From positions 1-37,731 of IMG/VR virus record IMGVR_UViG_3300025082_000027: 37,731 nt of DNA. The stretch is one strand, 5' to 3'. The position numbers and the translations under genes were made by a program. Shown piece after piece: positions 1,429 to 37,194 of the stretch (the stretch's first letter is position 1; each line of letters begins with the position of its first letter). This stretch comes from a virus. The notes beneath the pieces were generated by a model. It had not been told where the DNA came from and did no database searches. It saw nothing but the letters and a program-made list of their open reading frames with translations.

Positions 1429-1920
1429 ATGGGTTCAGTAAAAGAAGCAGCAGACATCTGGGGCAACTTCGCTCCAGAGGACTTTAAGCCAAGCGGTGGA
1501 GGAGACAGCTCGGGAGGGTCTTCTTCAAACAGAAAGCCAGTCCCTCTTGAGGATGGCGACTACACAGTCCGAGTCCTTTTCTTTAACTATTGGACGACCG
1601 ACTCCGACAAGACCTACTACAAGTGGGGCCTTGAGGTCGACGAGGGCATCATGAAGGGCGGCTTCGTCGAGAAGTTTCAGTCTGCGTCTGACGTAGGTCT
1701 TAAGATTCTGGCGCAAGACATGATGCTCTTGCTCGGAAACCTGCCGCCTATGGACGAGCTGTACAACCCGGAACAAAACAAGGCCGGGAGAGTCCAGGCG
1801 GATGTTGTTGGCAAGCGCATCAAGATGCGTAAGACGACAAACCGAAACGGGTACGACACCTTCTGGTTCAACGACGTTGCAAGTAACGACGTTGCCGAAG
1901 ACGATGAGATACCCTTTTAG
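1429..1920 (+). CDS. Single-stranded DNA-binding protein (DUF669-like) with SSB acidic tail
   Basis: This 163-aa protein has three parts: a short N-terminal helix, a Gly/Ser-rich linker at about 25-37, and a beta-rich core starting LEDGDYTVRVLFF (about 40-53), which resembles DUF669-type phage SSBs. The last ten residues, DVAEDDEIPF, closely match the acidic C-terminal tip of bacterial SSB (DDDIPF), which recruits partner enzymes. That tail is the strongest evidence for function. It lies between the Sak4-like ATPase (14 bp upstream) and the RuvC-like nuclease (2 bp downstream), so it probably coats ssDNA and recruits recombination partners. An AGGAAGG Shine-Dalgarno lies about 9 nt before the ATG. 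The fold assignment by family is inferred; the tail is seen directly. Confidence 0.8.
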   Translation: MGSVKEAADIWGNFAPEDFKPSGGGDSSGGSSSNRKPVPLEDGDYTVRVLFFNYWTTDSDKTYYKWGLEVDEGIMKGGFVEKFQSASDVGLKILAQDMMLLLGNLPPMDELYNPEQNKAGRVQADVVGKRIKMRKTTNRNGYDTFWFNDVASNDVAEDDEIPF

Positions 1921-8259: not shown

Positions 8260-11200
8260 TTACTTCCCGCCCTTAAAGAAGCCGGAAGGGAAACCCTCCT
8301 GCGGGATAAGACCAGCCTCCACGAGGGCCCTATACTCTCCCATGGGGCGAGACCTCTCTTTGTAGAAGATGTCAATCTGACCCATGTTGCCCATATTAGA
8401 GATGACAGAGTCTAGATTATCCTCAAACCTTCGGTGCGCGTAGCCCTCCAGCCGATTCCAGTCTATTGAGTATGGCTTAGCGCCAGTAAAGATGGCAGCT
8501 CCGCGCTCCCCCCACGTAGCCCCTTGCCCCGTCTTTGCAGTAACGCCCCCCATAAAGGTGTCCGTCACTGCCTTGTTCCACTCCGTCGCTAAGCGCCACG
8601 CAGGGAATGACCGGATTGCGGCCAGTCGCCGTGAACCGACCTCCTGGTTCTCTTGAAGAACACTGTCGTCCCAAGGAAGACCAGCCTCTATAGATTTGTT
8701 GCTCGGGAACCAACCAACCTCATACTTGGTGTAAAACTTTTGATTACCTTCACTGTCCATGTAGGGAACAGGTATCTCGGCGTAGCCAACCCAACGCTTG
8801 ATTCCCTCGGACAAATAACGAACGTCTCGAGCAGAGCGAATCCTATCAACGTCCACGTTGTAGTACGGGTCGTGACCAAAGAACATCTTGCTAATAAAGG
8901 GAACGACCGGGTGTAGCCTTGAAATGACCCCGCTTGGCCTCATCGAAATCCCGGTGCCGCCAGACTCAGCAAACTTAAAGAGGTCAACCAAGTCCTCTTG
9001 AGGTAAGCCAAATCCAGCAAAAACCTTACCAAGTCCAGCGCCGACAACCGCCCTATAGCGATGATGGTCCTGAAGCATGCTCAGGTCACCCTTGCCCGTA
9101 AACGAGTTCTCCGCCTGGTCAAGAAGCTTGGTGAGAGCTGAGTACTGAATGGGGCGGTTCCTGAGAAGCCATGGCTGGAGCTCTGAGGCGTTCTTGGATG
9201 TCCAGGTATAGAAGGGGAAGACCCTGCGAAGCCAGTGCCTCTCAAACGTGCTGAGGTCGTCGTAGTTGAAGAGGGTCTTGTGAACCAAGTCGGACGCAGC
9301 GTCAGGGCTTAGACCAACCTTCCTCCCAGCCAAGTAGTTGACTATCTTCGCCTGCTCTTCGACCTTCCTGCCGACTCCGCCGGCTAGAATGGCAGAGGCA
9401 TCCCCGATGGCTTTCGTTCCGGCAACCCCAAGAAAGCCATACAGCGCGGTCTGAAACGCAGACGCTGCTTGTCCACCAAAGCCACCTTCTTGTGGGTCTG
9501 GAAACATCCACCCTGTTGCGCCACCAGCCCCAGCGCCCCAAGCGCCAGTCTTTACGGCGTCACTCTTTATGATCGCCATCGCGGCTTGCTGTAGCCGGCC
9601 CTCGCCAAGCCTTGCTTCGTAGCCAACAATGTCCAGCCACTCATCAAAGGCTACAGAAAACGCCTGCTTGCTGTTCTCCATCAAGCCAGGGTCTCTATGG
9701 ACCGCGCCAGCAACGCTAGCCTTCTCCGCCTTGTACGCCGCCAGCGGAGCTTTTGCGTACATCTCCAGGAACGACGAGCCAACAACCCCGACTCCTCCGC
9801 CGAGAAGTGCGCCAGCAAACGCCTTCACTAGCCTTTTGTCTGGGTCATCTTCTGTTGAATAGCCAACGCCCGCGCCAAGGACAGCCCCCGCCGCAGCAGT
9901 TGTTGCGGGGATCTTCCAATTAACGTCGTTCCCGTACTTACCTCCCCTTATGTCCGAAGGGTTTATATGGTCAGTGATAATCCCGTACCTTCTGAGCTCG
10001 CTCCGCCACTGCTGAATGGTCTTTGTTATCTCAACAAGTTGCCCACCCTCAGTCCTGCTCTTCAGCGTGTACGTATTGGCAACTTCAGTCCCATCAGCAG
10101 CCTTCCTGGTTAGGTCAGCTGTCATCAAGTGAAACGAGTCGATTTGGTTGACCGGACTAACTGCCTGAAGGCCGTGTGTCATCAGGTTTGTAATGACGTT
10201 GCTGATCGCATTTCTTCCGTGAAATGCGGGAGCATAGACAGTCGTCATCGTCTTAAAAAAGTTCAGGAAGTTGTCAAACGACTCGACGCCAATCCTCCAC
10301 AGTTCGCTTCCTTGCTGCTTCTCATGGAGCCAGGTTGAGTCGCCAAGGGCCTCGACCATGTCGGCGTAGGCATACGGTAGGTAAATGTCTCGGGAGATTC
10401 GCTCTACGTTCAGCTTTATGCGCTCATCGTCCAGAGACACGCCGTGCTTCTGCAGGAACTCTGTGATCTTGCCCTTGCGGACAGCCTCGTCGCTGAACTG
10501 AGCGGTAATGTTTTTAATCTGCGGCGCGTACTTGTCCCAGCCAGACCAGTAGTCCTCGCCCAGAACAGCCCTCATGTGGTGCAGGTTGTCGACCTTGCGA
10601 AACCCGAGCTTTGCCGCAAGAGACAACGCGGCTTGAGGCTTATAGTTCGCCACAAGGGCGGCGATCTGCTCGCCCTCTGGAGCCATCAGAAGGACGTTGT
10701 CGATGAACCGTGTGTTCGACACCGTCCTCGAGACCTTCCTTCCGTACCTATCCATGATCTTAAAAAGGTCCGTCTCGAAGAACTTGATTTGATCTAGGCC
10801 GTGCTCCTTGATCACCTGCTGAATTATCTGGTCATCAATCACTTGGTCAGCTGGGATGTTCGGCAAACCCTTGTTCTGACGAACCGTCTCTCGATAAAAC
10901 ATCTCAGCGATTCCACGACGAACGCCCTCATTCACCTCTCGGATAGTCCCGCTCCTGCTTCGCAACTTCAAAACATCAGAAGCCGTGGAGATCTCCCCGA
11001 AGCCTCCGCCCCCTCCAAGATGCCCGCGACTCAACGACTTCTTCATTTGAGCGATCTTGGCGGAGCCCTCCTTGGTAAACATGTGGTGCAGGTACCCCTC
11101 AACCTGCATGCGCTCAAGGAACTCATCAACGCTCCAGTCCTTCTGCAAAAGCCCCTCAGCCTTAAGGACACGGTACATCTCCTGAAAGAACTCTCTTGCT

Positions 11201-14200
11201 GCGTCTACGGCATCCTTCATCTCCTCTGAAAGAGCCTCAAACTCAGGGTCTTTCTTCACTCCAGGGCCGTGCTTTGCTGATATTCGGGCGGCGGCACGAG
11301 AGGCCGCCCTCGCCTGACCAACAGTCATCTTCCCTACCGCTTTAGCAAACTCCTCGTCAGACATTGCCATCTTTACGCTGCCTAGCGCCGCATCCAATTC
11401 GTTGCGAAGCTTTCCAATCTCGATGAGCTCGTCTACGTCAGCTACGCCGGTAATCTGTCGGAGGGCCTTCGATACAATCTCGGCCCTCTCCAGCTCAGAT
11501 CGAATAGACTCGGCAACGTTTTCACCAAGAAGCTTTTCTCCCGGCGCACCAGGAGGCATGTCCACTGGCGCTCCATCAACACGCGCTCTCTTTGGCATGC
11601 CCATCCCAGAGACAGGCTTACTGTGGACCTCTTTACGCATCTGAGTTCTTGGTTTTGCTGAAGCTCGCGCCTTAGTCCTTCCCTTGATGTCTACATCGTG
11701 AACCCAGGTCTCCCAAATCTTCGGATCGCCTCTGTAGTTCTTGCCCGACCTAGTGACAAGGCCAATCTCCTCAAGCTGTCCCAACGCCTTCGCGACTAAC
11801 TCCTTGACCTCCTCAGGAGACTTTTTGGCAAGCGGGGAGTCCTTCTTTTTGGGGATCTTATTGATAATGGTTTGAATGGAACTGTGCCCGTACTCAGGCG
11901 CCTTCTTCCCTGTGGCTGCAGCCCGCCTTGCCTTGTCGGCCCAGCCCCTGCCGATTTTCTCAATCGCCGGCATCACATCATCTATGACATCGAGCGACTC
12001 CTGGTCCAATGACAACTCATCAAACCTTTTAATAGTCTCGTCATCAAGCGCTCTTCCCCTGAGTTCAGCCACCCCATCGTCAACGTCTGCAAAGCCCCTA
12101 CCCCAGAACGCGCCCTCCTCAGCAGGCCTTGCGCGAGGCTTCCAGCTCACCGCCTCGTTCAACTTAAACCGAAGGGCCTTGAACAGAGATACAGCCTCGT
12201 CGCCATATTCCGTAGGTGCGCCAAGCGCCTCTACGAAGTGACTAAGAATCTCCTTCTCCTTTTTCGTAACCCAAGACTTTCCAGAGAAGACTTTGCCGAT
12301 GACCTCGTTTATCGCAGACGACATCTCCCTTCTAGAGAACCCCATCTTCTTTGAGAGGTACTCCATCCTGGTCCACCCATGAGTATCGATGAGATCGGAG
12401 GACTGAAGGGGCTTCCACACATCCCTGTCTGCGCCATCTACGCCCTTACGCTGAATACGAACCGCCCAGGGCTTGAATCTCTTTAGGAAGGGGAGGCTCT
12501 GCTGCATATCCGCCAACACAGCCCCGGTCGACGTGAGCGTGTCGATGTCGTTCGTCATTCCATCAAAGGCGACCTTCTCGGAATTAACATGAACCTTTCC
12601 AAGCCAGGACCTCCCCATATCGTCGATGACTTGACCAACAGGCACTCCTGGCAGAGACCCAAGGGCAAGGCCAAGCGCAGCGACGGAGGCTCGCTTAATC
12701 ATCGAGTCCTTTTCGTCGGTAGCCGAATAAGCAGTGGCAGCGCCAGCTGCCCCACCAAATCCAATCAGCGCCTTATTGAATAACTGCTTGTCTTTAGCGA
12801 AGAGAGCCTTTGCCTTCTTCCTTCCTATCAACTTCTCGAGCTCCTTAGAGGCCCTGTCTGTAACCTCCTTCGATACCGTCTTCCCCTTAGTCTCTTGGAG
12901 AATCCTCTGTACCGAATAGTCGTCCTTGTAGATGACCTGGATTTTCGAGTAGTCAATTTTCGGTGTCGTTCCATCGAACGAAAGGGCCTCGTCTAGGTTT
13001 ATGTGAACAACCTCGCGGGCCTTCTTTGGAGCAGTTACGCCACTCTTCCGAAGGGCAGCGCCAACCACGTCCTCTACAGGGGCGTCCTGACCAAGCCGTA
13101 GCCCTCTGGATGCAAGGTCGCCTATCTTCGAATAGGCCTGCTTGATGAGCTCTTCCAGCGTGTTTGTGTACGCAGAGAGGTTCGCCTCTTCCATCTTGTC
13201 GCCAGCCTGGACCGCTTTCTCGAGTTCACCAAACATCCTCTCCTGGTGACGGGTGATCGTGGAGTACATCGAGCTGTCGCCAGCCTTTGTTAGGAGACCG
13301 CCGCCTGTCTTAAACGCCTCCTTGCCGAGCCTTGTAACCATTCCGGTAGGCACAAGGAAGTCAGGGCCTACAGTGTAGAAGAGGGTCGGCAGGAGAAGCC
13401 CAGCGTTCGGGTCTCCCTGCTGAATCGCTTCCTCTACCTTCTTTGCGTGGTACCCCCTGTCGAAGACCTCTGGCAAGGCAAGGTCGGCAAGCATCTTCCC
13501 AGGTATGCCGCCAGCAGCGAACCCAGTCACTCCCTTAATGCCTTCTGCGAGTTCCCCCACCCCAGCAGATCCAAGGCGCTGCATCTCCTTGTGAATAGCC
13601 TCTGTGTTCCCCTCGGGCCCGGTGTCTATGTTTCCAAAGGAAGCTGGGGCGGCAAGCCCCCTCATCCAAATATCTGCTGTTGTCGCAGGAGGGCCTCCAA
13701 TTACCTCGCCGCCAGCCCTTATCTTTTGCCATGGACGAGGAACCCCGTACCCTCCGTACGGGTCAGCGTCGTTTGGAACCCAGTATGTCGCCGCTAGCAT
13801 GGACCTCAAGCCAAGGAGCTTGGTGTCCAAAACAGGGTTTACGAAGTCATCCTCCCTGTTTCTCTCATTGAAGTTCTCTTTGATCTCCCGATAGATGTTT
13901 CTTCTCGGGTCGTCCTTATGAAGGTTCTCTACCCAGACCCCAAAGTCTTCTGGGTTAGCCTTCTTGATGTAGTCCATGTCAGCATGGGCGCTAAGAAGCG
14001 AGTGTGTTGGTCTACTGCCCCAAGAGACAAACGTGTCGGCCACGTCCATGGCTCGATAAAACGGAGTCTTTTTTCCAGGCATCTTCCCCGGAATAACGCC
14101 CGTCTCTTTGTACTCAGTAAGTTCTTCGCCAAAGCCCGGATGAGTTCTGGTTTCCAAATACTGTGCTTTCGCCAGAGCCCTGTACTTTGTTGACGGCTCA

Positions 14201-14430
14201 CCGCTAAGGGCGGATTTTTTCTTTGCCTTAGAAACCCCGTCCCTTAGCACCCTCCAATCGGCCTCATCCTTAGCTATCAATTCTGTCTTAAGCCAAGCCC
14301 GTTCAACCTCCGTCCGACCTCGGTCGTCTGTTAGGCCCTCCTCTGGCTCGTCTATGGGGTTGCCAAAGCGGTCTACCGCCGCGCCAGAGGGCTCCTCGTC
14401 TATGGGGTTACCAAAGCGGTCGGTCGCCAT
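8260..14430 (-). CDS. Giant ejection-type internal virion protein, 2056 aa
   Basis: At 2056 aa this is the largest gene in the window and longer than T7 gp16 (1318 aa), whose place in the gene order it takes: it follows 216-, 200- and 775-aa proteins in a row, like T7 gp14-gp15-gp16. The N-terminus carries DRFGNPIDE twice (residues 4-12 and 20-28). Three glycine-zipper hairpins, each two hydrophobic Gly/Ala stretches split by a charged turn, lie at about 553-600, 1507-1553 and 1628-1680. Residues about 850-905 look like a winged helix. A conserved phage motif, FHGRNAISNVITN, is near 1403-1415, and ERHWLRRVFPFYTW near 1730-1743. I see no transglycosylase motif. It probably enters the host envelope to pass DNA; this is inference from order, size and membrane-type hairpins. 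Confidence 0.72.
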   Translation of the reverse strand: MATDRFGNPIDEEPSGAAVDRFGNPIDEPEEGLTDDRGRTEVERAWLKTELIAKDEADWRVLRDGVSKAKKKSALSGEPSTKYRALAKAQYLETRTHPGFGEELTEYKETGVIPGKMPGKKTPFYRAMDVADTFVSWGSRPTHSLLSAHADMDYIKKANPEDFGVWVENLHKDDPRRNIYREIKENFNERNREDDFVNPVLDTKLLGLRSMLAATYWVPNDADPYGGYGVPRPWQKIRAGGEVIGGPPATTADIWMRGLAAPASFGNIDTGPEGNTEAIHKEMQRLGSAGVGELAEGIKGVTGFAAGGIPGKMLADLALPEVFDRGYHAKKVEEAIQQGDPNAGLLLPTLFYTVGPDFLVPTGMVTRLGKEAFKTGGGLLTKAGDSSMYSTITRHQERMFGELEKAVQAGDKMEEANLSAYTNTLEELIKQAYSKIGDLASRGLRLGQDAPVEDVVGAALRKSGVTAPKKAREVVHINLDEALSFDGTTPKIDYSKIQVIYKDDYSVQRILQETKGKTVSKEVTDRASKELEKLIGRKKAKALFAKDKQLFNKALIGFGGAAGAATAYSATDEKDSMIKRASVAALGLALGSLPGVPVGQVIDDMGRSWLGKVHVNSEKVAFDGMTNDIDTLTSTGAVLADMQQSLPFLKRFKPWAVRIQRKGVDGADRDVWKPLQSSDLIDTHGWTRMEYLSKKMGFSRREMSSAINEVIGKVFSGKSWVTKKEKEILSHFVEALGAPTEYGDEAVSLFKALRFKLNEAVSWKPRARPAEEGAFWGRGFADVDDGVAELRGRALDDETIKRFDELSLDQESLDVIDDVMPAIEKIGRGWADKARRAAATGKKAPEYGHSSIQTIINKIPKKKDSPLAKKSPEEVKELVAKALGQLEEIGLVTRSGKNYRGDPKIWETWVHDVDIKGRTKARASAKPRTQMRKEVHSKPVSGMGMPKRARVDGAPVDMPPGAPGEKLLGENVAESIRSELERAEIVSKALRQITGVADVDELIEIGKLRNELDAALGSVKMAMSDEEFAKAVGKMTVGQARAASRAAARISAKHGPGVKKDPEFEALSEEMKDAVDAAREFFQEMYRVLKAEGLLQKDWSVDEFLERMQVEGYLHHMFTKEGSAKIAQMKKSLSRGHLGGGGGFGEISTASDVLKLRSRSGTIREVNEGVRRGIAEMFYRETVRQNKGLPNIPADQVIDDQIIQQVIKEHGLDQIKFFETDLFKIMDRYGRKVSRTVSNTRFIDNVLLMAPEGEQIAALVANYKPQAALSLAAKLGFRKVDNLHHMRAVLGEDYWSGWDKYAPQIKNITAQFSDEAVRKGKITEFLQKHGVSLDDERIKLNVERISRDIYLPYAYADMVEALGDSTWLHEKQQGSELWRIGVESFDNFLNFFKTMTTVYAPAFHGRNAISNVITNLMTHGLQAVSPVNQIDSFHLMTADLTRKAADGTEVANTYTLKSRTEGGQLVEITKTIQQWRSELRRYGIITDHINPSDIRGGKYGNDVNWKIPATTAAAGAVLGAGVGYSTEDDPDKRLVKAFAGALLGGGVGVVGSSFLEMYAKAPLAAYKAEKASVAGAVHRDPGLMENSKQAFSVAFDEWLDIVGYEARLGEGRLQQAAMAIIKSDAVKTGAWGAGAGGATGWMFPDPQEGGFGGQAASAFQTALYGFLGVAGTKAIGDASAILAGGVGRKVEEQAKIVNYLAGRKVGLSPDAASDLVHKTLFNYDDLSTFERHWLRRVFPFYTWTSKNASELQPWLLRNRPIQYSALTKLLDQAENSFTGKGDLSMLQDHHRYRAVVGAGLGKVFAGFGLPQEDLVDLFKFAESGGTGISMRPSGVISRLHPVVPFISKMFFGHDPYYNVDVDRIRSARDVRYLSEGIKRWVGYAEIPVPYMDSEGNQKFYTKYEVGWFPSNKSIEAGLPWDDSVLQENQEVGSRRLAAIRSFPAWRLATEWNKAVTDTFMGGVTAKTGQGATWGERGAAIFTGAKPYSIDWNRLEGYAHRRFEDNLDSVISNMGNMGQIDIFYKERSRPMGEYRALVEAGLIPQEGFPSGFFKGGK

Positions 14431-25596: not shown

Positions 25597-26685
25597 CTAG
25601 GCGCTGTAGGCACCGCCAGCAAAGTTAAACGCACCATGCTCGCGGAGATTGTTAATAGTAAGAATGCCGTGGAACTTGGTCTTGGAGATCCAGGCCCATT
25701 GCTCCTGGGCCAAACGCCAGTCGTCCATGAAGAAGTGAGCGTTCGGGTTGATCCAGAGAACCATGTTTCCAAGGTTAGTCTGGCCCTTGCTCTTGCCCTT
25801 CACAGGGTCCAGCAGTCCAGGCACAAAGCCGTGTCCCGCAGAGGCACTCGGCGCACCACCAGTCATGTTGAGCATAAAGCCCTCACCACTGTTCTCGGTG
25901 ATGTTGTAGTCAGGAATGACCGTCGCACCCTTGAATCGGAGACTGGTGAAGCCTGCGCTTCCCATAGCCTCGTCAACCAAAGCACGCTCCGGTCCACACC
26001 ATTCCTCGTAGCCGTCGTAGACAGCCGGATCGACCAGCATCGTGTCAGGACGACGACCCCACTGCGAACACTCGCGGTAGAGCTGGGTCCAGGTCGGAAT
26101 GCCGGCAGTCATGAAACCGCCGCCGATCTGCTGGAACTGGTTGAAATGGTAGGTCGCGTTCTTCTGGACGTTGCCGACCGAAATACCGCCAGCTTGGTTT
26201 GCGGGGGTCGCAAACTCAATCATCCCGCGAATACCGTCGATGTCGCCGTTCACGGTGCTAGCCGTGTGAAGCTGTTCCTCGATGTAGTTACGCATAGTAA
26301 TAGCGCATTGCTGCATCTCGGCATCGAGAAGCTTGCCAATCTGGCGCTTCGCGTTCTGGTTGAGATCGACCTTGTCGCATGCGACGACTGACTGACAGGA
26401 AATCTGCCCCCAGTTGTCCCACAGGAACATCTTGACGAACTCGCTGTCAGCCGTGTTCAGAACCTGCGAACCTTGGTAGGTCTGCACATTCGGATTCTCA
26501 GCGTGGGCGAATGGGACTCGCGCGTTGGGCGCGGCCTCAAGGTGGATAGAACCCTTGTTGTACATTGAGTACAACAAGGGGGACTGCTCTAGGATCAGCC
26601 AAACAAGCTTCTCCCAGCTAGCGCCCCACGTAAGGCTGAACGCCTTCGTGTAGTCGCTAAGTGTTGTCGAAAATGGAGCTCCCAT
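25597..26685 (-). CDS. Major capsid protein (HK97-fold), 362 aa
   Basis: The 362-aa product has the layout of an HK97-fold capsid protein without a long delta domain: an N-terminal arm, a long spine-like helix with NAKRQIGKLLDAEMQQCAITM (about 110-131), a P-domain middle with TWTQLYRECSQWGRRPDTMLVDPAVYDGYEEW (about 196-227), and a C-terminal A-domain-like part ending GILTINNLREHGAFNFAGG. It sits between scaffold and decoration genes. GAGGT precedes the ATG with 5-nt spacing. A perfect 12-bp inverted repeat is present near its 5' end. Confidence 0.83.
   Translation of the reverse strand: MGAPFSTTLSDYTKAFSLTWGASWEKLVWLILEQSPLLYSMYNKGSIHLEAAPNARVPFAHAENPNVQTYQGSQVLNTADSEFVKMFLWDNWGQISCQSVVACDKVDLNQNAKRQIGKLLDAEMQQCAITMRNYIEEQLHTASTVNGDIDGIRGMIEFATPANQAGGISVGNVQKNATYHFNQFQQIGGGFMTAGIPTWTQLYRECSQWGRRPDTMLVDPAVYDGYEEWCGPERALVDEAMGSAGFTSLRFKGATVIPDYNITENSGEGFMLNMTGGAPSASAGHGFVPGLLDPVKGKSKGQTNLGNMVLWINPNAHFFMDDWRLAQEQWAWISKTKFHGILTINNLREHGAFNFAGGAYSA
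26552..26580. repeat. Perfect 12-bp inverted repeat in the capsid gene
   Basis: CCCTTGTTGTAC (26552-26563) is matched by GTACAACAAGGG (26569-26580) with a 5-nt loop. It covers codons 36-45 of the capsid protein (LYSMYNKG). A stem this long and perfect within a highly expressed coding region is unusual. Confidence 0.7.
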
Positions 26686-27689: not shown

Positions 27690-28244
27690 CTAAGTTGTAA
27701 GTGATTCCCGAACCAGTCGCTCAAGTTCGGGCCTTTTAGTTGTAATCGGGACCTTAATCCCGAGTTCCTTAGCCTGCTTTTTAAGTGCAGGCCAAGTCTT
27801 GGAAACAATCGTATCCACTTCTACGGTAGTTGTGTCAACTTGCTTGTCTTCAGAATCGGTTTCTTGTGCGCGGTTTTCTGTCCATCGCTTCACAATCTCG
27901 TCTTGCGTATACCGCTTGGTTCCAGCGTTGAGACCGCGCTTACCCTCTTTTACCGACTCGATAAGGCCATGCTTCTTAAGAATCCGCTTAGCCTCCGTCT
28001 TTGAAACAGTCTGACCGACTAAGTGATCCTCAGGAGCGTTCTCGGCAAACGTATACTCACCGCTATGAGTTGACTGCGTTTTGACATCCGCAACAAAGTC
28101 ATGACTCATCGTGCCTCGTCGCCGGCACCTCGGGCATGTGATGTAGGTGAATCCGCGCTCCTTCTGCGCCACAAATGCGTTAACCGTAAATCCCTGCTCA
28201 GAAGCATGGGCACATCGGCAACACCTAAGCGTGTAAATAGGCAT
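27690..28244 (-). CDS. Zinc-ribbon protein with SAP-like C-terminus, 184 aa
   Basis: The N-terminus has two cysteine pairs, C8-x2-C11 and C37-x2-C40, which make a zinc ribbon. The middle is basic and polar. The last 35 residues (LKKQAKELGI, then RPELERLVRESL) have the helix-loop-helix pattern of a SAP/HeH-type domain, often DNA-binding. It lies between the portal and scaffold genes. A head-assembly or DNA-binding role is possible; the zinc site and terminal domain are seen, the function is not. Confidence 0.62.
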   Translation of the reverse strand: MPIYTLRCCRCAHASEQGFTVNAFVAQKERGFTYITCPRCRRRGTMSHDFVADVKTQSTHSGEYTFAENAPEDHLVGQTVSKTEAKRILKKHGLIESVKEGKRGLNAGTKRYTQDEIVKRWTENRAQETDSEDKQVDTTTVEVDTIVSKTWPALKKQAKELGIKVPITTKRPELERLVRESLTT

Positions 28245-28257
28245 CTAACTCCCCTTC

Positions 28258-30180
28258 CTAAAACTGCGGTACGCCAGGAGGCGCCCCAAAACCTTCGCGC
28301 CCAGCTGCAGGAATCGTTAACGACTCCCCACTTACTGGATTAACTGCAGCGCCCATACCAATCGACTCTTCTGGCAAAGGTCCGCCGCCTTCCTGTGCAG
28401 GGGGCGCTGTGCCAGCCTGGCCCGCCGCCTGCCCAAAGAGCTGAGCAAAGCTATCCCTGATTTCGGGGCTGTCCTGTTCCCAGAGCTCAAGAGCCTTTGT
28501 GTAGAAGGCCGCAATCGCATCCGGCGGAACCTGCGCTGCAGCAAGGGATTGAGCTGACATACCCAAGGCATTCATGAACCCAATGTATGACTGGCGCTCC
28601 GCCTCTGGACCAACGGGCTTCATGCTTCCAGCATGTACGCCTACGTCAAACTCCCCTCTGATGTCGTTCCTAGAGTATGAGACGGGCTCGTCCTGCCCGG
28701 TGATCTGAACCCACCTATCAGCGTCATAAAACTGCTGCATGACCTGAAGGGTCTTTCTCGCAATAGTCTGAACAAACTTCTCAAATACGCGAAGCTTTGT
28801 TTCAGAGCGCCCTGAGTGCATTGCGGCCCTATAAGACACTTCTGTTGCAGACTTTGCTGAGCTCCGACCGCCGCGAAGAGCCTCGTCGCCCGCTCCCACC
28901 TCGTTCATAAAGGAGCGAATAAGATTCATCGTCCCAACAAACTCTTGAGGGAACGCAGGCATTACCAGGTTTCTAACGTCAGCTGCAACGTTCTTGCTCT
29001 TGGCCGCAACCATCTGCGGCTGATTCGACGCAAGAGCTGCCTTTGCGTTCTTGTCGAAGATGCCGTCCTTGTAGACAGTTTTAAGTGCCATAGAGGCCTC
29101 AAGCCCACTAACAGCGCCGTCCATCAGCCGCTGAACCTTTTCAGATAAAGGAAGAATCTTTTGCGCGAGCGAGATGCCGTAAAACTGATCGTTCACTTTA
29201 TCGAAGCGAAGGTCGACAAACGGGTAGCCTTCCATGTCAAGCGGGCTAAGCGCATGCTTCAAGATAGTAACGTCATCGCCGCCATCTCCCTGTCGGCAAG
29301 CCCACAAGACACGCATCTCCTTTACGCGCCTACGCTTTCGACGACCGCTCGAGCGAACAACTCGGTTCGCCCAAGCGTGATACCAGACCTCGTAAACCTC
29401 TATGTGCTCGGCTTGTTCACGCCGCCATACATTTCCAACGCCTGACTCATTCAACTCGTCGAGAGACTTAACCTTGTCAGCAACAAGGTCCTTGGTGTTT
29501 GCGAAACGACTGTCGTTCTTGACCTCGTCTACGTGGATAAGGTGCCGAATGGCAACCCATGGCATCCGGCCAATCTCGTCATATCCAGGTGGAAATACAA
29601 AGTTAAACGGGCTCACTCGTAGAAGCGTGGCATGAGCTGCCGGTCTATCTGCCGGAATGCCCATCTCCTCAAGACGGTCGCGCACTGTCTGCATTCCGTC
29701 GTCGTCGTCAAAAGTGTCGTCCTCGTCTAGGTCCCGGTCATAGTCCTCTACAGGAACAAAAATGCCAGCTGGTTGGTAAGTGATTCTTCCGATTCCAGCA
29801 GAGAGGATCAGAGCGTCGTCGAGAACCTTTCGACACTCCTCATTAAAGCCACCCTCTACCCATTCATACGCAAGCGCAGATTCCGCAACCTTAGACTTTG
29901 CCTTTGCCTCTCCAGAGTCCGATGGCCTTCGCGGCCTTGCATAGATTGCAGGGTCATTGTGAAAGATGTGCGGCTTAATCCCCTCAATAGAGGAGGAAAC
30001 TAAGGCCATTCCGCGACCACCATCCTCTTTCTCTACTCCCAATCGATAGGCATCCATTAGATTTCGCCAGTCGTCGAAGTGCGCTTTTCTAATCGTGGAC
30101 TCTGCCACGAGCACCTTGTCGAGAAGCTCCGATGCAGCCTCTTGCTTTATAGAAATCTTGGTCGGGTCGAACTTAGCCAT
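28258..30180 (-). CDS. Portal protein, 640 aa
   Basis: I chose the ATG at 30180, which overlaps the terminase stop (TGATG). The product has a helical N-terminus (RNLMDAYRLG), a region with SIEGIKPHIFHNDPAIYARP (about 57-76), a wing-like beta middle (APILRVSPFNFVFPPG-type, near 187-200), and a helical core with QFYGISLAQKILPLSEKVQRLMDGAV (about 332-357) and FVQTIARKTLQVMQQF. That is the pattern of podovirus portal proteins, whose length is usually 500-700 aa. The Gly/Pro/Gln-rich C-terminus is probably flexible. Position between TerL and scaffold fits. Confidence 0.8.
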   Translation of the reverse strand: MAKFDPTKISIKQEAASELLDKVLVAESTIRKAHFDDWRNLMDAYRLGVEKEDGGRGMALVSSSIEGIKPHIFHNDPAIYARPRRPSDSGEAKAKSKVAESALAYEWVEGGFNEECRKVLDDALILSAGIGRITYQPAGIFVPVEDYDRDLDEDDTFDDDDGMQTVRDRLEEMGIPADRPAAHATLLRVSPFNFVFPPGYDEIGRMPWVAIRHLIHVDEVKNDSRFANTKDLVADKVKSLDELNESGVGNVWRREQAEHIEVYEVWYHAWANRVVRSSGRRKRRRVKEMRVLWACRQGDGGDDVTILKHALSPLDMEGYPFVDLRFDKVNDQFYGISLAQKILPLSEKVQRLMDGAVSGLEASMALKTVYKDGIFDKNAKAALASNQPQMVAAKSKNVAADVRNLVMPAFPQEFVGTMNLIRSFMNEVGAGDEALRGGRSSAKSATEVSYRAAMHSGRSETKLRVFEKFVQTIARKTLQVMQQFYDADRWVQITGQDEPVSYSRNDIRGEFDVGVHAGSMKPVGPEAERQSYIGFMNALGMSAQSLAAAQVPPDAIAAFYTKALELWEQDSPEIRDSFAQLFGQAAGQAGTAPPAQEGGGPLPEESIGMGAAVNPVSGESLTIPAAGREGFGAPPGVPQF

Positions 30181-32150
30181 CACACCCACTTAGATCCAAG
30201 GCCACTCTTCTTGATTGGCCGGTAGTCATCGTCTTCGCTCCAGGCGGTCCAGCTAGGAGGAGGAAGGTCTCTCTCCCTCGGGTCCTTCCTGTTGCTTGAA
30301 CCAACCTCCAGATCACATACGGTTTGTGCCTGCAGCCAGGCCATAACTAAGTCGTCATGCTCCCCAGGAGGGGCGCCAACCTTAACCCGTTTATACATCT
30401 CATCGCCAGAAACTAAAGCAACAGATCCAGCAGATCGCTTGGTCAGTTCCATGAACATTCGCATTTCCTTGACCAAGCGTTGACTTCTAATGACCGGCAT
30501 CCTTGAGCGAATAATGTCTATTCCTACATGAACCATGATGGGCTTTGTAGCAATTGTTGTCGCCCAACCAAACCTAGCCTCAAAGTTTACTGACTCAACC
30601 TGCTCTCGTTGGTACAGATTCCAGTACTCAGTCTGCATGATGCCAAGAGAAACTGCATGACCAACGCCGTTAATCTCCCAAGAAAGCAGTGCATCATTGT
30701 AGTGCCTACACAAAAGCACAGCCTTTTCCGAAGTCTGCAGAGCCTCTGTCTTTCCCTGATACTCCGCAACCTGCTCCCTCGTATCAGCGCGCACTACTTG
30801 GATAGCAGTCCAGTCCCCGGTAGACCTTCCCGACGCAGGGTCTACAGCAACGACATACTTCACCCCGTCTTCGGGCCATTCCCAAACCCATAGAGAGTCG
30901 CTCTTTGCGCTCCCGTGACCGGACAACTCCGGAGACATGAAGGAGGCTAGGCCAATCCTTGAGCTAGAGTCCTCTTGCCCTGAAACGTCGACAATATCGC
31001 CAACGAATCTTGGCTTCTTTACAAAGCCATGCTCGACTGCAGCCAGGTCTGGCTCCTCAAAAACACGGCTTGCCGAGAACGCAAAGGCCTCTTCTGGCTT
31101 ACCTGGGTATTCCTGCTTAAACAGGTCCCAATTGCCCTGACACTTATCCATCCAGGTTCGGTATGCCCAATACGCCTGCTCCGGGTGCAGGTCGTAGGCT
31201 TGAATCATCGAAAGCAGTTCGTCGTCAAACCTGCCTATCAAGTCACTGAAGGTAACTCCGTCTGGAATCTCCCTGATGTAGTTCGGCATTGCATGCCACG
31301 GATAGAAAATGGCCTCCCACTCGCTGTCGATAGGGTTGCCCTTGCTGTCCTCTTTGTTCCAAGCCTTCCAGAACTCTTTATAGAAATATCCGCCGGCTCC
31401 GTTCGCCGTAGACTCGAGCACTACTAGTGTCTCTGGGTCGTCAGACAGGGTCTGCATAAGGCCAAGCATGAACGTTGCTGGGTCTCCCCAAAAGGCGATC
31501 TCAGACCCGTGGAAGTAGTGGATCTCAAAGCCTCGAGTCGAGTGGACTGCATCTGCAACAGAGACCTCAAACCTGGAGTTAAGCCCCGCTGTTTCGTCTA
31601 GCGGGTGAGTCATCCAGAGCTCGTTATCGTTGTTTCGCCTCAACTCTGGGCGAAGGTCTAGTGGCTTGTTGTTGTGTAAGTCCGCAGCCTCTTTGGATGA
31701 CTCTGCCTTGTGAACCTTTCCAGGATCGTCTGTAGACGTGCCATTGGGCAGGTTGTCGTACATCTTCTTAGCCATCATGAAGATGTTATTGGTAGTGATT
31801 CTGTCTACCGCTGTTACAAACGCTCGCCTATTCATCTTTGTCAGACACTGATGAAACATGAACGCCTGGGTGACGGTAGACAGGCCCATCCGCCTAGCCT
31901 TAAGAACGATGAAGCGCCCAGGTCGGCCCTCTTCACGCGCCTTCATAATCCGGCGATAGAAATCTTCCTGGATCTTATTCAGCTTTAGGGTGACGGTGTC
32001 GCCAACCCTCCCCTTATTGCTTGTCTCGGGGCGATTCAATACCTTCAAAAACTCTTCAGAGAACGCCGGAAAGTCCGCGTACCCTGAGGTTTCTGTTAAG
32101 CGCTCTGAGATTGCCCTCGAACGCTTCAGGCTCATCGCCTTGCGAGGCAC
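30180..32150 (-). CDS. Terminase large subunit (ATPase-nuclease), 656 aa
   Basis: Two domains can be read. ATPase: Walker A-like KARRMGLST (84-92), a Walker B-like strand ending HGSEIAFW (214-221) and the coupling motif STANG (247-251). Nuclease: VVAVDPASGRSTGDW with D437, WEINGVGH with E492, and a final HDDLVMAW with D599/D600. These are the standard packaging-motor and RNase H-like cutting motifs. It starts at a GTG that overlaps the previous stop (TAGTG); the ATG at codon 6 is the alternative start. It drives DNA into the capsid through the portal encoded next. Confidence 0.9.
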   Translation of the reverse strand: MPRKAMSLKRSRAISERLTETSGYADFPAFSEEFLKVLNRPETSNKGRVGDTVTLKLNKIQEDFYRRIMKAREEGRPGRFIVLKARRMGLSTVTQAFMFHQCLTKMNRRAFVTAVDRITTNNIFMMAKKMYDNLPNGTSTDDPGKVHKAESSKEAADLHNNKPLDLRPELRRNNDNELWMTHPLDETAGLNSRFEVSVADAVHSTRGFEIHYFHGSEIAFWGDPATFMLGLMQTLSDDPETLVVLESTANGAGGYFYKEFWKAWNKEDSKGNPIDSEWEAIFYPWHAMPNYIREIPDGVTFSDLIGRFDDELLSMIQAYDLHPEQAYWAYRTWMDKCQGNWDLFKQEYPGKPEEAFAFSASRVFEEPDLAAVEHGFVKKPRFVGDIVDVSGQEDSSSRIGLASFMSPELSGHGSAKSDSLWVWEWPEDGVKYVVAVDPASGRSTGDWTAIQVVRADTREQVAEYQGKTEALQTSEKAVLLCRHYNDALLSWEINGVGHAVSLGIMQTEYWNLYQREQVESVNFEARFGWATTIATKPIMVHVGIDIIRSRMPVIRSQRLVKEMRMFMELTKRSAGSVALVSGDEMYKRVKVGAPPGEHDDLVMAWLQAQTVCDLEVGSSNRKDPRERDLPPPSWTAWSEDDDYRPIKKSGLGSKWV

Positions 32151-33001: not shown

Positions 33002-33079
33002 TCTAAGACAATAGTCAAACTAAGGTATATCAATGGTGAGGAATAGGAAAGCCAAGACCGGGAGTAAGGAATAGTGACA

Positions 33080-33325
33080 ATGGAAGAAGACGATAATAGC
33101 GCCGTTCATGCTGCCATAAAGAGGCAGGAGCGCCGCACTCGAGAAAGCACCTACCTGCAGATGAGTGACTCCCTTAGGGGGTTTGAGGCTCTCTCCGATA
33201 AGAACCGCAAAGACACTACAAGGGCTCCATTCAAGGAGGCTCTTGGTCTATCAAACAAAAATCTAAAGACGGCGATAGACCGCTTTACAGCAAACAGTCT
33301 TCCGGCCAGTTCATACATTCGATAG
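33080..33325 (+). CDS. Isolated + strand small charged protein, 81 aa
   Basis: I chose the ATG at 33080, with TAAGGA 9 nt upstream; a GTG at 33074 is too close to that site. The 81-aa product is charged and helical: acidic start (MEEDDNSAVH), a basic helix (AAIKRQERRTREST), and a C-terminal KNLKTAIDRF. No family is recognised. It is the only + gene within the long leftward region, divergent from the late operon and followed by a structured non-coding segment with its own terminator. A small early or regulatory protein is possible. Lack of a recognised family keeps the confidence moderate. Confidence 0.5.
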   Translation: MEEDDNSAVHAAIKRQERRTRESTYLQMSDSLRGFEALSDKNRKDTTRAPFKEALGLSNKNLKTAIDRFTANSLPASSYIR

Positions 33326-33338
33326 GTGGACCTCTTCA

Positions 33339-33504
33339 TAGTCAGGTGTTACCTTCGACCCTCCGCCCATGGGGCCTGTCGCGGTACCAAAGACAGGTAG
33401 CCGGCTTAATGGGTTCCGGAGACACTCCCCTCCTTCCTGTGTCTTCGGGGCCCTAGCCAGGGGCCACACGTCAGACTAAGAAGTTTTTGTCGAGACTGTC
33501 TCTG
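33339..33504 (+). ncRNA. Candidate structured RNA with an anti-Shine-Dalgarno loop
   Basis: Hand folding of the + strand gives a closed multi-stem shape. An outer stem TAGTC (33339-33343) pairs with GACTA (33474-33478), and GTGT (33346-33349) with ACAC (33466-33469). Inside are three hairpins: CCTGTC/GACAGG (33375-33380, 33392-33397); a 10-pair stem 33416-33425 with 33439-33448, with one G-U; and GGCCCT/GGGGCC (33449-33454, 33460-33465). The 13-nt loop of the second is all pyrimidine and contains CCTCCTT (33429-33435), identical to the 16S rRNA anti-Shine-Dalgarno. The segment follows the 81-aa gene and ends at a terminator. It may be a small RNA or a 3' UTR; no promoter of its own is clear. 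Confidence 0.5.
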
Positions 33505-33536
33505 CTCGACCCACCTTTGGTGGGCACGAGATTTTT
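33505..33536 (+). terminator. Rho-independent terminator of the + strand gene and RNA
   Basis: CTCG (33505-33508) and CCCACC (33510-33515) pair with CGAG (33527-33530) and GGTGGG (33519-33524) around a TTT loop, followed by ATTTTT. An upstream GTCGAG (33489-33494) can instead pair with CTCGAC (33505-33510), so the base of the terminator has an alternative partner. It stops rightward transcripts just before the converging - gene ends at 33535. Confidence 0.75.
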
Positions 33537-34194
33537 ACCTCAAGTCCGTCAAAGCCAGAATGGTCCTGGCTCGCTCTTCTGGAGTGCCGAACGTCTCGTA
33601 GAGGGCAGCATTCTCTCGCTCTCTCGCCAACGCCTTAGCTGCGCTATTCGCCCTCACAGCCCTCTCATACGGAATGTCCTCTGCTAGGCGTCTTTTCCGC
33701 TCAGCCACCATTCTTTCCACGGACTCGATGTCTTCGTTTGACAACCGCATTCGTGGAGCCTCATCAGGCGGATAAAGCGAAAGCCGGGCCTTTGGGCCGA
33801 ACCTCTTAACCTTAAATTCTTGATGTTGCTGAGAGTTGGCCGTGTCTACCATGAGCCTGGGATCTAAGGGCGAAGGCTCCATCCTGGGTGGATTTAGTTC
33901 ATGGAGCGCGGCCCTCACCCACGAAGGGCCGGCTATCGGAACCTGTCCCACGCCGCCGCCCTCAATTCGGGCCGGGGCGTAAGTCAGATCACCCACCCTC
34001 CCCAACACCGAATCAGCGTACGGAGCGGGAAGATTAGAGACCTCTTCTCTGCTTAGCGGCTGGTACGGACCAAGCGGGACAGACGACTGCCAGTACGGCT
34101 GATCTCCCGCGTTCTGCCTGTCTATCTCATCCAGTCTCTGCAACTCAGCAATCTTTGCTGCGAGCTCTGGGCCGATGATTCCTTCTTCGGGCAT
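33535..34194 (-). CDS. Hypothetical 219-aa protein, end of the upstream leftward block
   Basis: I do not recognise this gene. The N-terminus is acidic and helical, the middle (about 40-130) is Pro-rich and probably unstructured, and the C-terminal third is a basic helix (ERMVAERKRRLAEDIPYERAVR) ending in TDLR. Three neighbours end in similar short tails (RDLR, SELR, RALGR). Start and stop are tightly packed with the next gene (2 bp). Similar disordered-plus-helix proteins occur among minor virion proteins, but nothing here proves that. Confidence 0.5.
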   Translation of the reverse strand: MPEEGIIGPELAAKIAELQRLDEIDRQNAGDQPYWQSSVPLGPYQPLSREEVSNLPAPYADSVLGRVGDLTYAPARIEGGGVGQVPIAGPSWVRAALHELNPPRMEPSPLDPRLMVDTANSQQHQEFKVKRFGPKARLSLYPPDEAPRMRLSNEDIESVERMVAERKRRLAEDIPYERAVRANSAAKALARERENAALYETFGTPEERARTILALTDLR

Positions 34195-34196
34195 AT

Positions 34197-35336
34197 CTAC
34201 CTCAAGTCTCTGAGTCTGGTATTTGGATCAAGATCGTATCCAGAAGCACGGTATTGCTCAAGGAGGCGTTGTCTTTCGGCTTCATTACGAAGTTCTTTTG
34301 CTTCCGCTGCAGCCTCGATGTCCTCTGCAGTTACCAGTCCTTCGTACCCTGATCCAGGTGGAGTAAATAGGCCAGCTGACTCTGGCGCCTCAGATGCGTA
34401 ACCAGCCAGAGCTGAGCCTGCGCCAACAGCGCTACCAATCGCCAGATCACCCGCGATATTGACGGGGCTGAGGACAGACCGCCCAAGCCGACCAAGACCG
34501 CCTGCAATACGCCTACCTAGCGAGCGCCTAGCCCCCTCTGTCCTCAGAGCCTTGCCCCTAAGAGGGCCTTCTGTGTGATACGGAGCTGGCCTTGTTCTGG
34601 CAGGCTCGTCATTGATAGGGCTTTCACTGCCTAGTTCGGTGGGCAGATTCTCAACGTAGGAGAGGTTCGTCACAGGCGAGACCGCCGACCCAGCCGAATC
34701 AAGCGCTTTTCGCTTTTGTACCCACGGAACATCGCCATCGGTTGGCCGGTTCAGCGGCGACTGCCGGCCCCACCGAACAGTATCTGCTATAAGCCTTACG
34801 GGCATTGTCTCGTAGCCAAGGTTCCGAAGAGCAGTCGCTCGATGCCTACCTTCATGCCCAATAACGCGACCCTCCGGATAGTATGTAGACCCTGGGTCTG
34901 TCGCGTGAAGAAACGGAACATCGCTAAGTGGGGTTCCTGTTTCAATGGCATTCATTATGCGGGCGAGCTTTGTTTCACTAGGGCCTGAAAAGTCTTTTGC
35001 TAGGGCGAGAAAGTCGTCTGGGCTCATCTGCGTGAGCAGCTCCCTAGACGCCGGTCCTTGCCCGCGAGCCATATCCAACGCCGACTGACTAAATAATTCG
35101 TCGGCAGTTGCAGCAGAGGCAGCCTTAATTGCTGCTATGTCTGGCGAGGCCCTGCGAGCAGCACCTGCGCTAGCGGCTACAGGCCCTCCTAGGGCCCCTG
35201 CCTTTGCAGCCTCTATGGCAAGGGCTCGCATACTCAGCTCATCCCCAGGCTCCAGTCTCCGGGTTCCCTCTGGCGCATACGAAGGCAAGGCACTTCCGTA
35301 TCTGGGGCGCACCTCTAGATCGTTATAGAGGGGCAT
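34197..35336 (-). CDS. Modular protein with ParB/sulfiredoxin-like middle, 379 aa
   Basis: Three parts are seen. The N-terminus (MPLYNDLEVRP, residues 1-11) is shared with the next upstream gene. The middle (about 100-185) has VIGHEGRHRATALRNLGY (158-175) then PVRLI, the pattern of ParB/sulfiredoxin-fold domains, whose members bind nucleotides or nucleic acid or cut DNA. The C-terminus has a Gly/Ala-rich hydrophobic segment (about 291-313) and a 61-residue tail, residues 319-379, of which 49 match the paralogue by hand alignment. GRHR suggests a nucleotide-binding loop; full active-site assignment is not possible. A delivered or membrane-associated effector is one idea; no function is established. 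Confidence 0.6.
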   Translation of the reverse strand: MPLYNDLEVRPRYGSALPSYAPEGTRRLEPGDELSMRALAIEAAKAGALGGPVAASAGAARRASPDIAAIKAASAATADELFSQSALDMARGQGPASRELLTQMSPDDFLALAKDFSGPSETKLARIMNAIETGTPLSDVPFLHATDPGSTYYPEGRVIGHEGRHRATALRNLGYETMPVRLIADTVRWGRQSPLNRPTDGDVPWVQKRKALDSAGSAVSPVTNLSYVENLPTELGSESPINDEPARTRPAPYHTEGPLRGKALRTEGARRSLGRRIAGGLGRLGRSVLSPVNIAGDLAIGSAVGAGSALAGYASEAPESAGLFTPPGSGYEGLVTAEDIEAAAEAKELRNEAERQRLLEQYRASGYDLDPNTRLRDLR

Positions 35337-36203
35337 CTATCTAAGCTCGCTCAGTCTGGTATTTGGGTCTAAGTCGTAGCCTGACGCTCGATACTGCTCT
35401 AGCAGCCTTTGCCTTTCGACTTCCTTCTCGAGTTCTTTCTGAGCGATGACTCTCTCGATGTCTTCAGCTCGGACAAGACCTTCGTAGCCTTCTCCTGGAG
35501 GAGTGAAGAGGCCAGCTGACTCCCTATCGCCGCCACCAGCTTTATGACCAAGGGCTGCAGAGCCTGCGCCCATCGCTCCCCCAGCAAGCATGTCTGCGGC
35601 GATCTTGACCGGATTGAACAGGCCCCTCGCGCCGGCCTTCAAGATCTGTTTGGCTCTTGCTGCCCTTGTTGGCTTAACAGGAACCTCTCTCGGCTGAACA
35701 GAGACAATCGGCGTCCCTCCCTGAATTGACCTTCCTGGCCTAACTGTGCGTCCGCCCCCCGCAAGATCCTCGACCAGCGCATCCCTGGCAACGTTAGTTG
35801 CCCGACCACCTCGGTGCTTGGTCCGCACTACGGCCCTTCTTCCGCTCTTCGTTTTCCAATCCGCCTCTTCTGTTCGCTTGATTGGCGAAGACGGGAAGTA
35901 GCGAAACTCCCCCTCAAGCCCATACCCGGCAGGCATTCTTCTTGAGAAAACGTCATGCTTCTTGGCAATAGCGCGAAGGGCCTCTATCTCATCTTCAGAA
36001 AAGCGACCCCTTGTTTTAGGCTGAGCGCTCAGCCAGTCATCGTAAGAGACCATCGACCCTGGGACGCCGCTAACAGCGCTACTAACAGCGCCGCCCAAAG
36101 TCCCAGCCAAGGCAGCATCTCTGAGAAGGGTTAGCATATCCACTTCTTGATACGACGGCTCAAGCCTTACCGGCCTGGTCTCTAAGTCGTCGTACAAGGG
36201 CAT
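35337..36203 (-). CDS. Paralogue of the ParB-like modular protein with a different middle, 288 aa
   Basis: It has the same ends as the gene at 34197-35336: MPLYDDLETRP at the start and ESAGLFTPPG...YRASGYDLDPNTR at the end, with a Gly/Ala hydrophobic segment (about 200-220) before it. The middle (about 50-190) shares nothing obvious with the paralogue: it is basic (KRTEEADWKTKSGRRAVVRTKHRGGR), lacks the GRHR motif and I cannot assign it. The start region CATCTCTATCTCCC (36201-36214) is identical to that of the 165-aa gene. Conserved ends with exchanged middles imply recombination and a common targeting or assembly function for the ends. Confidence 0.6.
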   Translation of the reverse strand: MPLYDDLETRPVRLEPSYQEVDMLTLLRDAALAGTLGGAVSSAVSGVPGSMVSYDDWLSAQPKTRGRFSEDEIEALRAIAKKHDVFSRRMPAGYGLEGEFRYFPSSPIKRTEEADWKTKSGRRAVVRTKHRGGRATNVARDALVEDLAGGGRTVRPGRSIQGGTPIVSVQPREVPVKPTRAARAKQILKAGARGLFNPVKIAADMLAGGAMGAGSAALGHKAGGGDRESAGLFTPPGEGYEGLVRAEDIERVIAQKELEKEVERQRLLEQYRASGYDLDPNTRLSELR

Positions 36204-36205
36204 CT

Positions 36206-36703
36206 CTATCTCCCGAGAGCTCGAAGCCTAGCCTCTAGTGCTCGTTGTTCTTCAAGTTCACGCATCAGCTGCTCTACTCGAGCGGCTCTCTCTGGGTCGG
36301 GAAGAGGCATAGCTGGCTGGAACTCAGCGGTGGGCATTCGATAGTCGCGCAACTCTGCCCCCAGTCCGGGGTCTGCCTGCGGCAGCATGGCCGGCGGGTA
36401 ACTCTTGCCTGGAAAAGCGCTTCTCACGCCATAAGCGTCCCAGCGACTCTCGCCCGGACCAGGACTAAACCCAAGAGCGGGCCGTTCCTCGATGTAGGGG
36501 GGGAACCTCTCGTTGTAGATAGCGGGCAATTCGGTAGGGGGCGGGTTCCCGATGTAGTCAGGGAACTCCGTGTTGTACGGGTTCTCCTGGCTGAGCCGGC
36601 GGACGGCAGACGCACCTAAATCATTCATGACGGGAGACTGGGACCCGGCCAAACCCTCTCGGATTGCCCTGATTTGGTCAGCGTTTACGAGCTCATCAGC
36701 CAT
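36206..36703 (-). CDS. Hypothetical proline-rich 165-aa protein
   Basis: The first 35 residues are helical (VNADQIRAIREGLAG). The middle is very proline/glycine-rich (YIGNPPPTELPAIYNERFPP, APGFSPGPGE-type) and likely disordered. The last 30 residues are a charged helix (ERAARVEQLMRELEEQRALEARLRAL). I recognise no family. It shares its 14-bp translation-start sequence with the next gene and ends in a similar ARLRAL tail, so it probably belongs to the same functional set. A virion-internal or linker role is a guess. Confidence 0.48.
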   Translation of the reverse strand: MADELVNADQIRAIREGLAGSQSPVMNDLGASAVRRLSQENPYNTEFPDYIGNPPPTELPAIYNERFPPYIEERPALGFSPGPGESRWDAYGVRSAFPGKSYPPAMLPQADPGLGAELRDYRMPTAEFQPAMPLPDPERAARVEQLMRELEEQRALEARLRALGR

Positions 36704-36735
36704 CTCTATCTCCCAGGAAGTTCAACCAAACCGTA

Positions 36736-37194
36736 TCACACGTTCCCTACCACTTCACGCATACCCGTGAGGGTCGACGTAAACCCCGTCCTCTCCTTCG
36801 TGTACGGGTCGTAATACCGATACTCAAGCCTCGGCTCTACATGAACCTTCCTGCGCCTCCTCAAAGCCGTAAAACGCTTCCGAGACTCCTCACTCAACTT
36901 CCCCCAACCATCTAACCCCTCTAACTCAACCTCCTTCATCCCAGACAGCCTGGACGGTAACCAACCAGGGAAGCTCATCCCAGCCTCAGTCTTCCCAAGA
37001 CCAACACTGAGCTCACCCACTAACCATTCACAATCCAAGTGAGTAGAGAAGAACCCATACACAGGGTTACCGCGCTCGTCAGATAAAGAACTGTTACGAG
37101 CAAAGTAAGAAACACCAGCCCTGATGCTCTCACCACAAGAAGTACAAGTTCTTCTTTTTTTAGTTTTTAAAACCCGCAGAGAATGTATCGCCAT
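36736..37194 (-). CDS. PARP-type zinc-finger-like protein, 152 aa
   Basis: Near the N-terminus, C17-x2-C20 is followed by H52-x2-C55 (HLDC), with an RNSS stretch between: this CxxC...HxxC layout matches a PARP-type zinc finger, which binds nicked or broken DNA in that family. The rest is basic (KRFTALRRRRKVHVE) and ends in a beta-rich part. The ATG at 37194 is preceded by GGGG at 5-nt spacing, and a 14-bp palindrome lies 12 bp upstream. It is the first leftward gene after the repeat-rich right region. A DNA-binding early or regulatory role is inferred from the zinc motif. Confidence 0.6.
   Translation of the reverse strand: MAIHSLRVLKTKKRRTCTSCGESIRAGVSYFARNSSLSDERGNPVYGFFSTHLDCEWLVGELSVGLGKTEAGMSFPGWLPSRLSGMKEVELEGLDGWGKLSEESRKRFTALRRRRKVHVEPRLEYRYYDPYTKERTGFTSTLTGMREVVGNV

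Follow-up and report, generated by a model that had tools for sequence, protein, structure and literature searches.

The NfeR1 (alpha-r14) sRNAs of rhizobia carry an ultraconserved anti-Shine-Dalgarno (anti-SD) word, which stays unpaired in hairpins whose stems are highly different (PMC10746234). In NfeR1 this loop-borne word, CCUCCUCCC, covers the Shine-Dalgarno sequence (SD) and blocks translation of several mRNAs, and in S. meliloti these RNAs are Hfq-independent (PMC10746234). The SisA-D (alpha-r8) sRNAs of Caulobacter, also bacterial, contain a C/U-rich anti-SD word and are thought to repress many targets; the word, UUUCCUCCCU, is linear and single-stranded and is followed by a Rho-independent terminator (PMC12559287). 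Phage T4 encodes two regulators that act where translation of many early mRNAs is initiated, the repressor protein RegA, which acts at ~30 start regions, and the endoribonuclease RegB, which cuts at GGAG/U (PMC3014915). OOP, aQ, VpdS and 24B_1 are encoded by phages and target mRNAs of the phage or of its host; in the review passages considered they are tied to single genes or host factors, without an SD form common to an early regulon (PMC12197685).

We analyzed a 37,731-base virus record from IMG/VR (the window), which encodes a conserved structured RNA of ~160 nt. Like the alpha-r14 sRNAs, this RNA holds a constant word unpaired in a hairpin loop while its stems differ, but it has one such hairpin, bearing CUCCUUCC as its seed, whereas the alpha-r14 sRNAs have three, each with CCUCCUCCC, and are encoded on a bacterial chromosome. 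The alpha-r8 word is absent from the phage RNA, and the seed lies in a hairpin loop rather than in a linear stretch. In further contrast to NfeR1, the seed is matched to an SD form common to the phage's own early genes; the literature that was searched contained no report of a phage RNA of this kind. Where T4 employs proteins, the phage studied here has a candidate antisense RNA, which, judged by analogy, appears to act as anti-SD sRNAs do, though in a new context. The parts of the RNA are as follows.

33329..33488, plus strand: conserved structured RNA, ~160 nt, with its 5' and 3' ends inferred from conservation and a U-run
33340-33343 with 33474-33477, plus strand: outer stem AGUC/GACU, weakly supported
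33344..33356, plus strand: conserved word AGGUGUUACCUUC
33375..33397, plus strand: small hairpin CCUGUC/GACAGG, loop GCGGUACCAAA, confined to the close group
33403..33458, plus strand: main hairpin
33426..33438, plus strand: all-pyrimidine loop UCCCCUCCUUCCU, 13 nt, carrying the seed CUCCUUCC (33430-33437)

Folding of the 60-nt hairpin on the plus strand gave -31.7 kcal/mol with a z-score of -5.10, and none of 200 shuffled sequences folded equally well or better; on the minus strand the same region reached a z-score of only -1.10. The entire 198-nt region, however, had a z-score of only -1.86, so the case for the RNA leans on the hairpin and on the comparison with relatives. The initial annotation had placed a 10-pair hairpin at 33416-33448 with a 13-nt all-pyrimidine loop. 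The loop is real, and the hairpin is present but longer, with 15 pairs in its upper stem (33411-33425 with 33439-33453) and four in its base stem (33403-33406 with 33455-33458), the two stems being separated by an internal loop.

Relatives were gathered by a terminase search and by exact matches to a 23-mer of the hairpin, and a covariance model was used for the RNA in distant relatives (~72-76% terminase identity). The RNA was present in 15 distinct relatives, and the viruses that carry it are marine, infect bacteria and form one family. Among close relatives it is 85-99% identical despite replaced neighbor genes and a shifting distance to the terminase gene. The covariation expected of a structured RNA was found: across the 15 distinct sequences, 96.4% of the cells were paired and 17 pairs showed two-sided change, none of 500 shuffles matched the real alignment on any of five measures, and when the partner column was displaced by one, pairing fell to 48-56%; the alignment, having been fitted to the structure, is biased towards it, and the margins over the slid and shuffled alignments are large. 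In the upper-stem block 11 of 13 pairs had changed on both sides, and the compensatory changes in the long stem are visible on inspection. These results confirmed that the hairpin is a real, conserved RNA structure. The 36 G-U cells indicated its strand, since 96.4% of the cells are paired when read as plus and 88.3% when read as minus, and the RNA is therefore assigned to the plus strand, opposite in orientation to the terminase operon. A minus-strand element was rejected, because the G-U pairs become C-A and folding of that strand is poor.

The flanking parts varied in their conservation. The outer stem is weakly supported, with 86% of its cells paired and a two-sided change in one pair. The conserved word that follows it reads GUGNUACCWUC in most relatives, constituting a second conserved word 5' of the main hairpin, and is able to form a 4-pair mini-hairpin. 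The small hairpin is without covariation support because it is constant in the seven close sequences, and distant relatives carry other hairpins at its position. In the close group its loop contains the palindrome GGUACC (33383-33388), a possible kissing-dimer site; self-dimerizing palindromes were rejected as the main function of the RNA, the palindrome being absent from distant relatives. A terminator had been thought to belong to the same RNA as the outer stem. The terminator-like hairpin with its T-run (33506-33535 in the window, 33-80 in the relative L009) is strong and conserved, but as a module of its own, since in L009 other genes separate it from the RNA, which is ~1 kb away, and it was rejected as a part of the RNA.

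No Rfam 15 curated family matched the window at its gathering score, and none was found up to E = 5 in 33250-33600. A scan for tRNA and tmRNA found none, and a nucleotide search among isolated phages found no relative. The RNA model gave no credible match in L075 and L076 (50% TerL identity), MW202692 or CRP-7. Bacterial genomes were searched with a degenerate RNA pattern, and the new matches were rejected as lacking the hairpin; a second pattern applied to viral contigs gave new matches that look like chance, in a phage with a TerL of only 24% identity.

While the stems changed almost everywhere, the loop seed remained constant. UCCUUCC is invariant in every homologue, and the longer seed CUCCUUCC is kept in all of them but L014, which has AUCCUUCC. 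The loop had been described as identical to the anti-SD of 16S rRNA, CCUCCUU. This identity holds in the window, and CCUCCUU occurs in the loops of many members, but the anti-SD core CCUCC is lost in L014, L018, L019 and L025, so the conserved loop word is instead UCCUUCC, which overlaps the anti-SD and reaches beyond it by CC. The exact complement of UCCUUCC is GGAAGGA.

We investigated whether GGAAGGA marks the start regions of early genes; SDs are purine-rich in general. A short plus-strand stretch at the left end of the window carries early-type genes (Sak4-like, RuvC-like). The window itself contains no more than a fragment of the early region, and the main evidence came from the longer records of three relatives, G003 (L014), G005 (L019) and G001 (L008), all of them fragments, with genes classed as early by strand and function. 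GGAAGGA precedes gene after gene on the early strand of the three records, typically as GGAAGGAGAGAGAUG, and the early region includes genes for DnaB helicase, replication initiation, an exonuclease, Sak4 and a methyltransferase. With starts predicted by simple rules that favor SD-like sequence, and with the same rule applied to all SD variants and to both the early and the late strand, 24 of the 31 GGAAGGA sites in the early region (25.8 kb) stood before a start as against 5 of 24 in the late region (154 kb; Fisher p 3e-5), the 24 cases being not fully independent because related early genes may share an inherited motif. Three of the five late starts belong to the gene after the portal gene, one to a small gene that precedes TerL in L014, and the remaining one, in G009, lies inside or near a long reading frame.

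Before early starts of the three relatives GGAAGGA ranked first among 128 purine 7-mers, while each of its one-base neighbors preceded at most four early genes, and GAAAGGA, which fits the common 16S tail, preceded two. The early start regions of G005 and G001 were bound better by CUCCUUCC than by the 16S anti-SD, whereas their late start regions were not. Averaged over every early gene called in G003, the start regions showed no preference for the loop over the anti-SD, indicating that the signal there stems from a subset of genes. Phages without the RNA lacked the signal: CRP-7 had seven cases of GAAAGGA and one of GGAAGGA, and MW202692 and G013 (50% TerL identity) had one of GGAAGGA each. 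The seed is thus complementary to the start regions of a defined gene set, as in an antisense RNA that acts on SDs. In the window, one early gene is a candidate target.

1429..1920, plus strand: candidate early target, start region ACUAGGAAGGUAUUACAAA-AUG

The predicted pairing between seed and SD is strongly supported by these matches, and we consider it rather probable that the RNA is a phage-encoded, trans-acting antisense RNA that occludes the SDs of the phage's own early genes. Masking of the SD by a C/U loop is well established among bacterial sRNAs as a block to translation, and we propose that the phage directs this chemistry at its own early mRNAs. The ~160-nt RNA would act in trans, displaying UCCUUCC on its long hairpin, and the seed would pair with GGAAGGA shortly before the start codons of many early (replication and takeover) genes and, as well, with the start region of one late gene, after the portal gene. 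Pairing would block ribosome binding, and one RNA would thereby lower translation of the whole regulon, a repression that would probably serve as an early-to-late switch, with late genes escaping through start signals that are mostly different and weaker. More tentatively, the RNA could be a master switch in which the seed and a dedicated early SD form are matched to each other; this one RNA would then silence translation of the early regulon as late growth begins. The sequences show the structure and strand of the RNA, the invariant seed and its match to a dedicated early SD form, and we infer expression of the RNA, pairing in vivo, repression and its timing. The RNA may itself be early, since it is on the early strand; the match at the late post-portal gene is not predicted by a pure early-to-late switch. 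A positive effect, or host mRNAs as extra targets, may also occur. The initial annotation had envisaged an RNA that blocks mRNAs with strong SDs; the C/U-rich loop suits SD pairing and phage mRNAs are likely targets, but the seed fits the GGAAGGA form and is not a plain anti-SD copy. If the proposed mechanism is true, phages would possess an RNA-based temporal switch and a new RNA family, and SD variants could serve as regulon addresses.

The virion genes are encoded on the minus strand, with the candidate late target following the portal gene.

30180-32150, minus strand: terminase, virion gene
28258-30189, minus strand: portal, virion gene
27690..28244, minus strand: 184-aa gene after the portal, candidate late target, start region UUUUAGGAAGGGGAGUUAG-AUG
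25597-26685, minus strand: capsid, virion gene

Start regions of the conserved virion-operon genes were scored against each phage's own loop. The post-portal gene (184-194 aa) had the best loop match of the late genes scored, with a mean of -14.5 kcal/mol versus -9.1 kcal/mol for the anti-SD, and the next best late genes had means of -11.6 and -10.7 kcal/mol. A close match to the loop before this gene is kept in nearly all relatives, the start region being UAGGAAGGR in most of them. GGAAGGA lies over the start codon in L017 and L021, with a separate SD upstream, and L014 has only a match containing G-U. When the 8-nt seed was permuted, the true order ranked third of 56 for the post-portal gene and second for the operon's first gene, and thus the late-gene match alone is suggestive only. 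A zinc-ribbon-like part at the N-terminus of the protein and a Rho_N/SAP-like C-terminus were both below the cut-off; the zinc-ribbon-like cysteines CxRC/CxRC are invariant in the family, and the predicted structure is of low confidence (mean pLDDT 64.1).

Conceivably, the RNA controls mainly this zinc-ribbon-like late gene, with the early matches being secondary or the early mRNAs acting as sponges. Among late genes its match is the strongest and most conserved, and in L017 and L021 GGAAGGA is retained at the start codon apart from the SD; however, the motif stands before 24 early genes of three relatives, and in L014 the late match depends on G-U, which makes such a role unlikely. A general anti-SD RNA for host shut-off, which would pair with any strong SD, mainly on host mRNAs, while weak SDs spare the late genes, agrees with UCCUU in the loop, with CCUCCUU in many members and with the weak SDs of phage late genes. 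The stretch that pairs with most SDs, CCUCC, is nevertheless not conserved whereas the CC past the 16S match is, and the seed is a better partner for the early SD form than the usual 16S tail is. Host shut-off is therefore improbable, although of the alternatives we give it the most weight.

It is also doubtful, and somewhat more so, that the host has an unusual 16S tail, CUCCUUCC, for which the early SDs would simply be optimal, the RNA then mimicking the 16S tail as a decoy that captures SDs or a ribosome factor. Of the genomes that match CUCCUUYC, 2 of 67 from Alphaproteobacteria and 1 of 9 from Gammaproteobacteria have the CC form; tails of this kind exist but are rare, and the phages differ in G+C (52-61%), a spread that suggests more than one host. 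Least probable by far is a packaging RNA like the pRNA of phi29, which had been raised early on. In its favor are the location of the RNA in relatives, 0.9-4 kb upstream of the terminase gene, and the palindromic loop GGUACC of the close group, but the RNA has no Rfam match, the terminase alignment has ATPase and nuclease-type motifs, the RNA was not found in more distant phages with related terminases, the palindrome is lost in distant relatives, and the seed match to early SDs would be left without explanation. Occlusion of early SDs by an antisense RNA is the reading that we prefer.

Several other features were observed in the surroundings of the RNA. TAAGAC-like words recur every 11 bp at 33005-33030, just 5' of the gene that opens the terminase operon, and are found at the same place in L017, L019, L021 and L022, with TAAGACAATCGTAAGACTACACTAAG in relatives; the RNA directly follows these repeats in several distant relatives. 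The repeats may be a promoter, an operator or a packaging site. A small plus-strand open reading frame (ORF) at 33074-33325, just 5' of the RNA, is variable cargo present in four near relatives only, and L008 and L009 have a different gene in its place. The adjacent minus-strand genes at 33535-37194 resemble one another around their starts, where ~65-75% of the DNA is identical, which suggests paralogous starts in a variable gene cassette adjoining the RNA. The 2056-aa minus-strand ORF at 8260-14430, which had no Pfam family above the cut-off, possibly encodes an internal virion protein, and its counterparts are 2314 aa in G003 and 2736 aa in G009.
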